Below are positions 36,475 through 41,624 of a stretch of 58,257 nucleotides of DNA, one piece after another. The translations under genes and the position numbers were made by a program. The stretch is from Bacilli bacterium (GTDB lineage: Bacteria > Bacillota_I > Bacilli_A > ML615J-28 > CAG-313). The notes under the pieces are model-generated. The model had not been told where the DNA came from. It was given only the letters and a program-made list of their open reading frames with translations, and ran no database searches. The stretch covers positions 1-58,257 of the forward strand of contig JAFTPH010000036.1 of assembly GCA_017463365.1 (NCBI GenBank), written 5' to 3'. The first letter of the stretch is position 1. Every line of letters begins with the position of its first letter.

Positions 36475-37125
36475 TTAACCTCTACGAATAGATTCAATAA
36501 CTACTGGAAATTGTGGGAAATCAGAAAAACCATATCCTATATTCATAGTTGGCACTTTACTAATTTCTAATACCACTTGATTGCTTTCTTCATCAACCGT
36601 TTTACCAAATGCGGCATAATTTCCATCTAAATGTGGAGCATCAGCTGAACAAATAAAGAATTGAGATGATGCTGAATTCATATCATTTGTACGAGCCATT
36701 GAAATAACTCCTAATTTATGAGCTAAATTGTTTTCTACACCGTTTGCTTCAAATTCACCTTTAATTGATGGAATATCGGCTTTTTCATTTAAGGAATTTC
36801 CATCTAAATAATAACCTCCAGTTTGAATCATAAAGTTTTCAATTACACGATGGAAACATACTCCATCAAAATATTTTTGATCAACTAATTTTAAAAAGTT
36901 TTCAACTGTAATTGGGGCTACTTCTGGATATAATTCCAAAGTGATTTTTCTTCCATCTTCTAATTTAATAACGATAATTGGATTTTCCATTTCTTCATTT
37001 CCTCCATTTTCTTCTTGATTTTGATTATTTTCTTCATCATTTGGTATTTGATCATCAACTGATTTATCACACCCAGATAATACCAATAACAAAGTACAAA
37101 TCAGCATAATAAATAGTTTTTTCAT
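36475..37125 (-). CDS. Peptidyl-prolyl cis-trans isomerase, cyclophilin-type lipoprotein
   Basis: A 216-residue exported cyclophilin. The signal ends LSGC (lipidated Cys19), then an acidic asparagine-rich linker, then the cyclophilin core: ITLELYPEVAPITVENFLKLV, FHRVIENFMIQTGG (catalytic Arg), MARTNDMNSASSQFFI, and YAAFGKTV. It would assist folding of extracellular proteins. Its ATG overlaps the copA stop by one base (TAATG), so it is translationally coupled to the copper ATPase. Confidence 0.93.
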   Translation of the reverse strand: MKKLFIMLICTLLLVLSGCDKSVDDQIPNDEENNQNQEENGGNEEMENPIIVIKLEDGRKITLELYPEVAPITVENFLKLVDQKYFDGVCFHRVIENFMIQTGGYYLDGNSLNEKADIPSIKGEFEANGVENNLAHKLGVISMARTNDMNSASSQFFICSADAPHLDGNYAAFGKTVDEESNQVVLEISKVPTMNIGYGFSDFPQFPVVIESIRRG

Positions 37126-37334
37126 TATTCAACACTTACTACATCATAACCTGCATCAGTTACTGCTTGTACAAGTTGTTCATTTGATACTTCTTTAGCA
37201 AGTTCAACAGTTGCAGTTTTAGAAGCTAAATCAACTACTACCCCTGTAACTCCTTCTACTTTTACTAAAGCATCTTCAACATGTTTTTGACAATGTTTAC
37301 ACATCATACCTTCAACTTTTAAAGTTTTTTTCAT
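37125..37334 (-). CDS. copZ: Possible free CopZ from an internal start in copA
   Basis: Within copA, an in-frame ATG at 37334 is preceded by GAGGA at 8-9 nt spacing. From it a complete 69-residue copper chaperone is read (MKKTLKVEGMMCKHCQKH), the normal CopZ length with the CxxC at its usual place. The site looks like that of a stand-alone gene, so both a fusion and a free CopZ may be made. Whether the ATPase part really reads through is only shown by the open frame. Confidence 0.5.
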   Translation of the reverse strand: MKKTLKVEGMMCKHCQKHVEDALVKVEGVTGVVVDLASKTATVELAKEVSNEQLVQAVTDAGYDVVSVE

Positions 37335-39563
37335 TATTTTTTCCTCTTTTCTTTCAACATTTTTAATCTTTTTTAATCTTAATGAATTTAAAACAACACA
37401 CACAGAACTTAAACTCATCATCAATGAACCTACCATTGGCGTAATCACAATTCCAAGAGGCACTAAAATTCCCGCAGCCACAGGAATACAGATTGCATTA
37501 TAGAAGAATGCCCAAAATAAGTTCATTTTAATAATCTCGATTGTCTTTTTACTTAAATTAATTGCTTCTACAATATGTAACAAATCTTGACCTATAATAA
37601 CAATATCAGCGCTATCGATTGCGATATCAGTACCATCACCAATAGCCATACCAATATCTGCAGCAGTTAACGCAACCGCATCATTGATACCATCACCAAC
37701 CATTAAAACTTTTCCATTTTGCTTTAATGCTTCCACAATATTCTTCTTATCTTCTGGCATTGCCTCAGCAAAGCATTCATCAATCCCTAATTTATTTGCT
37801 AAATTTAATGCTACTTTTTTGTTATCACCGCTTAATAAAACAGTTTTTATTTTCATATTTTTTAAAGTATTAATTAAACTTGCGCTTTGTTCTTTTATTT
37901 CATCTTCGAAAGTAATAATTCCTAATAATTCATCATTTTTAGCTAACATTATTTTCGTAAACTCTAAATTATCTTCTGGCACTTGAACACCATATTCTCT
38001 TAATAACTTTGGATTACCTACAAGATACGTATCATCTTTAAGGTTAGCAATCATTCCAAGTCCAGGTTTTTCAATGATTGTATCAAACTCAAATACTTTT
38101 TTAACTTCTTCTTGGACTTTATCTACAATACTACTAGCTAGTGGATGATTACTATTTTTCTCAATACTATAAACTAAATCAATTAATTCTTGATATGATG
38201 TATTAATTGTTTTTATTTCTTTAACACTCATTAATCCTTTAGTAAGTGTTCCTGTTTTATCAAAAACAACCGTCTTAACATCTTTTAATATTTCCAAACA
38301 TGAACTATTTCTAATTAATATCCCATGGTTAGCAGCAGTACCTGAGGCAACCATTATTCCTAGTGGGGTAGCAAGACCTAAAGCACAAGGGCATGAAATA
38401 ACTAAAACAGAAATCGCATGTTCAAAAATCTTACTTGTATCAATAAATGACCAAATTATCGCTGTTAGAGCAGCAATCCCAATTACAACAGGGACAAATA
38501 TTCTTGCAACTTTATCCACTATTCTAGATATTGGCATTTTTGAATTACTAGCTTCTTCAACAAGTTTTATTATCTTAGATATTGAACTATCTTCATAACC
38601 ATGAACAACTTTAATAATAATTGTTCCAGATATATTTAATGTTCCCGCTAAAACAGAATCTTTTACTTTTTTATATAGCGGAATACTCTCACCAGTTAAA
38701 CTCGCAGAATTGATACTTGTCTCTCCTTCAATAATTTCCCCGTCTAATGGAACTTGCATTCCCGGTTTAATCATTACAAGATCATTTTCTTTCACAAATT
38801 CAATTGGGACAATTTTAAATTCTTCCCCTTTTTTGACAAAAACTTCTTGGGGAGTAAGATCAATTAATTTTTCAATCGCATCAGTTGTTTTCTTTTTTGA
38901 TAAACTTTCAAAATATTTCCCCACCGAAACAAAAGTAAGAATTGATCCTGCTGATTCAAAATAATATTGTTCGTATGTTTTTGAAACGAGACTCAAATCA
39001 TTATTTATCCAACCATATAATGATTCTCCAATCGTAACAATACCATATATTAAACTTGCAAGAGCTCCAATTGCAATAAGTGAATCCATATTTGGATTTT
39101 TCTTTATTAAGTGCTTAAATCCCCTTGTAAAATAACCAAAATTTAAACCAATAATAGGAACTACTAAAATAAGCTGAATTAATCCTAACCAAAAACTACT
39201 ATAAAGTCTATCAGCATTTGGATGATGTAACACTTCAGGTATAGGTAATCCAAACATATGTCCCATTGATACATACATCAAAACTACCAAAATAATAATC
39301 GATATAATTAATTTAATTTTTTTATAATTTACTTCTTTTCCTTTTTCTTCTTTTTTAGTAAGGGAAGCACCATATCCAATTTCAATAACTTTTTGAATAA
39401 TTTGTTCCACACTACAAATATTTTCATCAAATTCAACTATCATTGTATTTGTTACTAAACTAACAACACAATTTTCTACACCATTCATTTTATTTATAGT
39501 TCGATCAATAAAGGCAGAACATGCTGAACAAGTCATACCAGTAATATAAAATTTTTTATTCAT
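37125..39563 (-). CDS. copA: Copper-exporting P-type ATPase with C-terminal CopZ domain
   Basis: An 812-residue P1B ATPase. Metal-binding domain 1 has GMTCSAC (Cys12, Cys15). Membrane helices and the phosphatase motif SLTGES follow, then the copper channel CPC in VISCPCALG, the phosphorylation site DKTGTLT, the HP motif in NSNHPLAS, and GDGINDAV. After the last helices a second metal-binding domain with GMMCKHC forms the final 69 residues; in most Firmicutes this CopZ chaperone is a separate gene. TTAGGTGA precedes the ATG at 39563; the frame reaches 12 codons further without a better site. Confidence 0.95.
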   Translation of the reverse strand: MNKKFYITGMTCSACSAFIDRTINKMNGVENCVVSLVTNTMIVEFDENICSVEQIIQKVIEIGYGASLTKKEEKGKEVNYKKIKLIISIIILVVLMYVSMGHMFGLPIPEVLHHPNADRLYSSFWLGLIQLILVVPIIGLNFGYFTRGFKHLIKKNPNMDSLIAIGALASLIYGIVTIGESLYGWINNDLSLVSKTYEQYYFESAGSILTFVSVGKYFESLSKKKTTDAIEKLIDLTPQEVFVKKGEEFKIVPIEFVKENDLVMIKPGMQVPLDGEIIEGETSINSASLTGESIPLYKKVKDSVLAGTLNISGTIIIKVVHGYEDSSISKIIKLVEEASNSKMPISRIVDKVARIFVPVVIGIAALTAIIWSFIDTSKIFEHAISVLVISCPCALGLATPLGIMVASGTAANHGILIRNSSCLEILKDVKTVVFDKTGTLTKGLMSVKEIKTINTSYQELIDLVYSIEKNSNHPLASSIVDKVQEEVKKVFEFDTIIEKPGLGMIANLKDDTYLVGNPKLLREYGVQVPEDNLEFTKIMLAKNDELLGIITFEDEIKEQSASLINTLKNMKIKTVLLSGDNKKVALNLANKLGIDECFAEAMPEDKKNIVEALKQNGKVLMVGDGINDAVALTAADIGMAIGDGTDIAIDSADIVIIGQDLLHIVEAINLSKKTIEIIKMNLFWAFFYNAICIPVAAGILVPLGIVITPMVGSLMMSLSSVCVVLNSLRLKKIKNVERKEEKIMKKTLKVEGMMCKHCQKHVEDALVKVEGVTGVVVDLASKTATVELAKEVSNEQLVQAVTDAGYDVVSVE

Positions 39564-39578
39564 AATTAAATCACCTAA

Positions 39579-39593
39579 TATGATTTTATCATA
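39579..39593. promoter_or_regulatory. Palindrome over the copA -10 region
   Basis: Perfect TATGAT-TTT-ATCATA (plus strand). On the minus strand it contains TGATAAAAT, a likely extended -10 of copA. It is a possible operator; it does not match the CopY box TACANNTGTA. Confidence 0.35.
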
Positions 39594-39624
39594 ATTCAAT
39601 TAAAAATATCAAAAAAATGCAAAT

Positions 39625-39646
39625 AAAAAGGGATTTCTCCCTTTTT
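39625..39646 (-). terminator. Terminator of the SDR-transglutaminase operon
   Basis: A 9-bp stem AAAAAGGGA/TCCCTTTTT with a TTTC loop at the end of the transglutaminase-like gene. Confidence 0.82.
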
Positions 39647-41624
39647 ACTTTTCAAAGTATCTAATAGTTAACACTTTATTTTCTAACCATGCATCACTAC
39701 TAATATCTAAAGTGCTAATACTTTTAATACCTGCCTCAGTTATTGCTTCAGTCAATATACTAGTTATATCACCTTCATAACTAAAACTTATACGCATATC
39801 AATTGTTATGTCGTTTGAATAATTTTGGGCATACCATTTTAGAATAATCTTTAATTCATTTAATGAAGTAATATTGAAATCATATAAATGTCCATCATAT
39901 TCAAAGAACATTTCTTGATAGATATCATATTCACCATAAGCAATTAAATCAGTGTATGTTTCAGCAACATATTCACTACCATAAAAATCATCATTAACTA
40001 ATAGATATTTATGAGTAAGTACTTCTTTCCCTTCAGCAATTGTTCCTCCACTTGTTGCGTCAACCACATACCACATATCATTTATTCTTACTTTATTCCA
40101 TGCATGTCTATAAGAACCATCAACAGCTGAACCAATTACTCTAATCGCCTCAATTCCTTCAATTCGACACATTACCACAAAAGCTTTCGCGATACCATCA
40201 CAAACTGCTCGATTATCTAGTAAAACACCTTCTAAATAAAATCCTCGATATTTACGAATATCTTCAATACGTCCTTCAGTATATTCTTTTAGTCGTTTAT
40301 CATAAGTAACATTGATAACTAACCAATCGTATATCGCATGAACCTTTTCATAATCATTCATTTCTGTTTTAATAATATTTCTTAAAACATATTTAGCTTC
40401 TTCATATATTTTTATAACTTCACTAGACCCTTCATCATTATAATCAAAAAGCGGTTTATATCCACGCTCTAACACATAATAAAGTTGTTCAGAATTTTTA
40501 ACTAAATATCCATTTGGTAAATTGTTTATTTCAAAATTTTCAAATGCCGGACCACGACTATTACTTAAAATGGTCTCAACATTTTCTAATTGTTGATATC
40601 CATCAGTAAGAGAGGCTTTTGTAGTTGCTTCTTCTTCAAATTCTAAATCAACAAAGATACTGTTTCCTTTACGTTGCACGCTATATTCAACCTTTGAATC
40701 ATAATGAACTTCTTCGATAGCGTATCTTACTTCTGTTTGAACATTTGTTAAATCATAGTTAATTATAATTTCATGAGTTCCCGTAATTCGATGAAAAATC
40801 ATATATTCAAAATAATCAACTAATTCTTCATAACTATTTACTGTATTAGATAAATAACCTAGTTCTAAATTATCTAAAAATCCTTTATCAAGTTCTTGAG
40901 TTTTTTCGAATCGTCCATATAAGGTGATATTATTATCTGGCATTTTATAGAAAGAATACACATCTTTATATGAACTATCTTTATACCAAACAAGGTGATA
41001 ACCTTCTCTTACATCATTTTCATTAAGTTCTGGAGCTTTGATTTTAGTTCCAGGAATCTCTTTTAATGGTTCAAATTCAATACCATCTACTTCAAAGTTA
41101 ATAGTAGCATACCATGTGGCATATAATTCTAAATCATATGCTGGCATAGTTTCCATATCAAATAAATTATTCTCATAAAACCACCCAACAAACTCATAAC
41201 CATTTTTCGAAATTTCTGGTAATTCATCAAGTTCAGAATTATAATCATATTCAACTGTGCCAATCACTTCATTATCACAAATAAATGATATTGTATATTG
41301 ATTTACCTCATAAAGTGCTTTATATTTTTCATCTTTAGTAACTAAATCGAAACTAGCTTTATTATCCCAACCAACAAATGTATATCCTGTTTTGTTAGGT
41401 ACTTCAGGTGGAACTACTGATCCTCCTTTTAAAACCTCTACTTCAGTTATATAACCTTCAATATCAAATGTGATTGTTGCATATCCATCATCATCTAAAT
41501 CGGATATTTTTCTATAAACATATAACCCGCCAAATAAGGCAATAAATATAATACTTAAAGCAATTAATTGTTTGATAAATTTAATCATATTTTCATCACC
41601 TCTTTGTATCATAAATTTTAACAT
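39645..41624 (-). CDS. Membrane-anchored protein with InlB-type repeats and a transglutaminase-like domain
   Basis: A 659-residue protein. One N-terminal helix (about residues 16-36) anchors it, probably facing out. Three repeats of the Listeria-Bacteroides (Flg_new/InlB B) type follow, marked by GYTFVGWD, GYEFVGWFYE and GYHLVWYKD. A transglutaminase-like domain has a plausible triad Cys475 (VCDG), His507 (RHAW) and Asp522 (VVDATSGG). Such proteins may process or cross-link surface polypeptides. Two in-frame starts have ribosome sites: 41624 (AAGGAGG, 5 nt) and 41588 (GAGGTGAT); I use the first. Confidence 0.85.
   Translation of the reverse strand: MLKFMIQRGDENMIKFIKQLIALSIIFIALFGGLYVYRKISDLDDDGYATITFDIEGYITEVEVLKGGSVVPPEVPNKTGYTFVGWDNKASFDLVTKDEKYKALYEVNQYTISFICDNEVIGTVEYDYNSELDELPEISKNGYEFVGWFYENNLFDMETMPAYDLELYATWYATINFEVDGIEFEPLKEIPGTKIKAPELNENDVREGYHLVWYKDSSYKDVYSFYKMPDNNITLYGRFEKTQELDKGFLDNLELGYLSNTVNSYEELVDYFEYMIFHRITGTHEIIINYDLTNVQTEVRYAIEEVHYDSKVEYSVQRKGNSIFVDLEFEEEATTKASLTDGYQQLENVETILSNSRGPAFENFEINNLPNGYLVKNSEQLYYVLERGYKPLFDYNDEGSSEVIKIYEEAKYVLRNIIKTEMNDYEKVHAIYDWLVINVTYDKRLKEYTEGRIEDIRKYRGFYLEGVLLDNRAVCDGIAKAFVVMCRIEGIEAIRVIGSAVDGSYRHAWNKVRINDMWYVVDATSGGTIAEGKEVLTHKYLLVNDDFYGSEYVAETYTDLIAYGEYDIYQEMFFEYDGHLYDFNITSLNELKIILKWYAQNYSNDITIDMRISFSYEGDITSILTEAITEAGIKSISTLDISSDAWLENKVLTIRYFEK

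Follow-up and report, generated by a model that had tools for sequence, protein, structure and literature searches.

In E. coli, a programmed −1 frameshift in copA gives a free CopA(Z) domain (PMC5009743; Meydan 2017 and Drees 2017, via PMC7558416). As proposed here for fused copA-copZ genes, a single copper-pump gene thereby encodes both the pump and a free chaperone, an HMA domain about 70 residues long. The two cases differ in that the E. coli product is the N-terminal domain and is made by a frameshift and an early stop, whereas the fused genes would release the C-terminal domain by internal in-frame initiation without any frameshift. Separate copA-copZ operons of the Bacillota encode the same two proteins, and the Shine-Dalgarno (SD) sequence of copZ often lies within the end of copA, but a stop codon or a change of frame stands between the genes. 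In infB, clpB and cheA, an internal in-frame start yields a C-terminal isoform. The mechanism is like the one considered here but serves another function, as the isoform from copA-copZ would be the soluble partner of a membrane pump. In the literature that was searched, we found no internal start in copA and no in-frame release of a C-terminal CopZ by internal initiation.

The much-studied CopA of Archaeoglobus fulgidus has a C-terminal metal-binding domain (Mandal & Arguello 2003; Agarwal 2010), and PDB entries 3J08 and 7R0G are structures of this pump. The function of the C-terminal domain is unsettled. The species has, in addition, a CopZ encoded separately that contains an iron-sulfur domain (PMC7558416), and the activity of its pump was reported to be unaffected when the metal-binding domains were lost (PMC11970713).

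The gene analyzed here lies in a window of 58,257 nucleotides, by which we mean the whole stretch of DNA that was analyzed, and all features described below are on its minus strand. An uninterrupted frame ran from an ATG at 39563, with the SD-like TAGGTGAT upstream, to a TAA at 37127-37125 and encoded 812 amino acids plus the stop (37125..39563). In Pfam and NCBIfam scoring, this open reading frame matched a Cu P1B-ATPase and carried an HMA domain at either end. Membership in P1B-1 CopA was met with 557.7 bits for TIGR01511 (cut-off 397), together with matches to PF00122 in the actuator/E1-E2 ATPase region (38325..38858, residues 236-413) and to PF00702 in the phosphorylation and nucleotide-binding region (37656..38279, residues 429-636), which contains DKTGT and GDGIND. 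These two motifs and CPC serve as the CopA criterion, and all three were found in the translation. The N-terminal HMA metal-binding domain (39372..39551; PF00403, 57.5 bits) carried GMTCSAC, and an A-rich stretch was seen just after it at 39330-39360. A promoter-like site upstream of copA, TTGATA-18-TAAAAT (39583..39612), was recognized by consensus match only. A terminator-like hairpin at 39621..39650 belongs to the upstream gene, so copA is probably the start of its own transcription unit. From a reading of the sequence only, the upstream gene (39645-41624) appeared to encode a surface protein that carries repeats of the Listeria-Bacteroides type and a domain resembling transglutaminase.

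Between the last ATPase helix and the C-terminal domain, a Lys/Glu-rich linker (37335..37380) contained an internal SD, GAGGA (37342..37346), followed after a 7-nt spacer by an in-frame ATG (37332..37334), the putative CopZ start codon. Both were kept in relatives. The frame from this ATG to the stop codon (37125..37334) encoded 69 amino acids forming an HMA domain with GMMCKHC, which on its own scored 56.4 bits for PF00403 and met the criterion for CopZ/Atx1-type proteins, that is, an HMA domain some 66-70 residues long that carries GMxCxxC. The nearest short solved chains were the CopZ proteins 1k0v and 2qif, and both domains of the fusion have standard folds. The curated NCBIfam cut-offs for CopZ were not reached (CopZ_Bs, 63.6 vs 91; TIGR00003, 58.2 vs 62; CopZ_AFE_1862, 70.7 vs 85), and by its profile scores the domain is a CopZ relative outside these curated subfamilies. 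An earlier note on this DNA had claimed that copA ends in a complete 69-residue CopZ domain within one open frame, that both CxxC motifs are present and that the in-frame ATG follows GAGGA at good spacing, and the analysis confirmed all of this. With an in-frame start and an SD at the boundary of the C-terminal HMA domain, the window met the criterion for a fused copA-copZ gene with an internal start. The window's genome, which is 97% complete, contains no further HMA domain and hence no separate copZ; it also lacks a CsoR-family repressor. Local RNA folding around the internal ATG was weak. The SD of the window was moderate and weaker than most (−6.0 kcal/mol; p = 0.17 vs synonymous recoding). 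Taken alone, this one sequence proves little, and the claim of a second, predicted product rests on conservation across fused genes and not on the window by itself.

A start codon with a strong SD at the domain boundary was present in 128 of 136 fused CopA-CopZ genes, which came from a scan of named genomes, a Bacilli-wide sample for which the linker had been removed from the profile, and fetched regions. One pattern of the first scan resembled the linker, and counts from the linker-free profile are given separately to guard against circularity; in the Bacilli sample alone, 65 of the 68 fused genes had the site. Samples drawn after the hypothesis had been formed showed the site in 48 of 48 genes (Spirochaetota 23/23, clostridial phylum 22/22, Archaea 3/3). 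Because long linkers disrupt the match to the profile, a cut-off of 1e-46 proved too stringent in the phylum of the genome carrying L046, and that search was repeated. Only 6-8% of random 19-codon windows from the same genes met the same rule, and a matched control of internal HMA domains from the N-terminal part of CopA gave no site in 40 cases. When the genes were clustered to 60% identity, giving 50 clusters, the site was present in 88% on average. The hidden-start arrangement was seen in about 175 of the bacterial and archaeal pump genes examined. The earlier note had suggested asking whether the internal site is conserved in relatives, and it was kept in fused relatives across the Bacillota, Spirochaetota, Bacteroidota and Archaea. 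Holdemania filiformis and Selenomonas ruminantium are among the species that carry it.

The linker varied from a few to more than 60 residues, with the SD still 4-11 nt from the start codon, and in L047 the site was kept with GTG in place of ATG. Two or three tandem C-terminal HMA domains were observed in several CopA proteins (L012, L094, L099, L152, L157, L158, L160, L161 and L274), and the internal start preceded a later C-terminal HMA domain in L152, L158 and L160. The site was absent from eight fused genes among the first 136. Two of these eight, in G001 and G009, belong to the window's family, and no separate copZ was found there, which indicates that a free CopZ is not indispensable.

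The mean SD energy was −9.6 kcal/mol, compared with −2.5 kcal/mol at other in-frame ATGs in 68 genes. The internal start was weakly structured (−3.6 vs −12.6 kcal/mol at other ATGs), and the region after the SD in fused genes was A-rich with little structure, like real starts. When genes were recoded synonymously one by one, p < 0.05 was reached in only 22%, so no single gene settles the matter, whereas the joint codon test is decisive. The SD occurred in two main registers, AAG GAG G (Lys-Glu) and AAA GGA G (Lys-Gly). In Lys-Glu linkers, AAG and GAG were each used in 53 of 57 cases (16 and 15 expected, respectively), and in Lys-Gly linkers AAA and GGA were each used in 20 of 20 (11 and 5.7 expected), with the expectations taken from the same genes. 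The test admitted only genes with an SD above threshold, which excluded just 2 of 126 ATG genes. The lysine codon reversed with the SD register, and since a protein constraint cannot explain this, the SD itself is selected. Judged by codon choice, the internal SD is under selection at the nucleotide level.

A tree of 213 pumps, in which many inner branches were weak, showed one large, old group in which most pumps are fused, along with several fusions that arose separately, with at least 14 changes of state. In many unfused relatives, copZ began inside or just past the end of copA, which indicates the route to fusion. L067, L068 and L073 formed one supported clade in which the SD-ATG sequence AAGGAGGAAAAAATCATG was common to fused, separate and overlapping forms. 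Within the window's family, the window's genus had the fused gene with the site, and in the sister genus g2 the site was present in two species and absent in two, all four genes being fused. The earlier note had also proposed looking in relatives for a stop codon between the two parts, and genus g3 (L013-L017) has kept this stop, with copZ as a separate gene that is overlapping or adjacent. In two fused genes of genus g2, L005 and L006, the boundary showed neither a Met nor an SD, and their genomes yielded no separate copZ; the stop is overlapped by the next reading frame, whose product is a putative lipoprotein of 450 amino acids. The window sequence GAGGAAAAAATAATG and the overlapping form GAGGAAATATAATG of L014 differ in length by 1 nt, so an error in the window's contig alone is not strictly excluded. 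Assembly error or a simple frameshift as the general cause of fusion was rejected, as well over 150 genes are fused in this way.

A separate copZ was found in 6 of 39 fused genomes compared with 21 of 26 genomes with unfused pumps (Fisher p = 3e-7). This was a hand tally in which a good candidate had at least 45 bits in a reading frame of up to 160 amino acids, and the unfused set was picked by the analyst and was not random. Some fused genomes also contained weak separate HMA proteins. Among Bacilli genomes whose fused gene is without the site, 2 of 5 had a separate copZ, and in L218 it lay 1 nt downstream of such a gene. These numbers are too few to prove that a separate copZ compensates for loss of the site.

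The gene after copA in the window encodes a lipoprotein cyclophilin (36475..37125; PF00160), and its ATG overlaps the copA stop as TAATG. The earlier note had called this translationally coupled neighbour unusual for a copper operon, and it is not conserved beside fused copA in other genomes. Among the loci seen, no other fused copA gene was followed by a cyclophilin, and the coupling is local to the window's genome. Wherever the next gene was a copper gene (at least 25 loci), it was csoR. It was observed directly 3′ of fused copA-copZ, often overlapping the stop, in L075, L076, L078, L081, L088, L094, L098 and others, and fused copA-copZ with csoR makes a compact copper operon.

We consider it very likely that one gene gives two products here, a pump and a free CopZ from the internal start, in the absence of any ribosome profiling, proteomics or blot. 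Translation from 39563 would give the P1B-1 ATPase, a Cu(I) exporter that carries metal-binding domains at both ends, and translation from the internal SD and ATG (37346-37332) would give only the final 69 residues, a protein of about 7.5 kDa. This would be a free, soluble Cu(I) chaperone of the CopZ type, able to bring copper to the pump. On this explanation, the fused gene arose when copA merged in-frame with a copZ that lay next to it or overlapped it, with the copZ start site retained inside, and selection has kept the site because these genomes are mostly without another copZ. The explanation draws on the observed site, on its conservation and its selection at the nucleotide level, on the window's genome being without a separate copZ, and on sister genes in separate, overlapping and fused forms. 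Use of the site in the cell, the free soluble product and its role as a chaperone are inferred from the internal start, as there are no expression data.

The internal SD and ATG could instead be unselected leftovers of a recent copA-copZ merger. In unfused relatives the copZ SD already lies within the last part of copA or directly behind it and so would be inherited on fusion, and a few fused genes have lost the site. However, in an old and large clade of fused genes that spans the Bacilli, Clostridia, Negativicutes and Spirochaetes, the site persists although the surrounding linker has diverged, the codon choice is opposite between the two registers, and the start codon of L047 has changed only to another start codon; we regard mere inheritance as very unlikely. 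In most genes the SD comes directly after the last transmembrane segment, a position that would also suit a pausing signal, with slowed ribosomes giving the final ATPase helices time to insert ahead of CopZ synthesis. Against this, it is the distance from the SD to the start codon that stays at 4-11 nt despite variable linkers, the distance to the membrane is not fixed, and the downstream sequence is rich in A and has little structure, as is seen at real starts. Pausing in place of initiation seems less probable still.

The full-length frame is open in all fused genes, so that a tethered domain is certainly encoded, and the internal start is missing from a few of them, which would agree with a C-terminal CopZ domain that acts solely as a tethered metal-binding domain or pump regulator. 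Such a sole role would leave the conserved start site unexplained, and it sits poorly with the reported activity of A. fulgidus CopA after loss of the metal-binding domains (PMC11970713); we find it scarcely credible. A tethered role is nevertheless compatible with the two-product explanation, and the two are not exclusive. The inference of one gene with two products, in-frame and C-terminal, had been made in the earlier note and gained support from the comparison (128/136, 48/48 and the codon choice). The two-product reading is well supported at this comparative level and reaches far beyond the window, with production of the small protein itself inferred.

The archaeal pump L284 was identical over 400 residues to PDB 3J08 (A. 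fulgidus CopA) and had AGGAGGTGATAGTGTG at the boundary of the C-terminal domain with a GTG start. In the same gene, AGGAGGTGAT and then GTG were seen where the C-terminal metal-binding domain begins, and the match to 3J08 stopped just before. From this identity it follows that the C-terminal metal-binding domain of A. fulgidus CopA has the same hidden start. The A. fulgidus case shares this start, through L284, and the domain order with the window gene, and differs in being an archaeal pump with a GTG start and an additional separate CopZ. The balance tips slightly towards the view that the C-terminal metal-binding domain of fused pumps, that of A. fulgidus CopA among them, is mainly a copZ merged in-frame, with the free chaperone from the hidden start as the key product. 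The small product would be missed by annotation pipelines and by tryptic proteomics alike, because all its internal peptides are shared with the pump. If the view is true, copper handling by one gene with two products would have evolved repeatedly via different translational routes, through a frameshift at the N-terminal end and through internal initiation at the C-terminal end.
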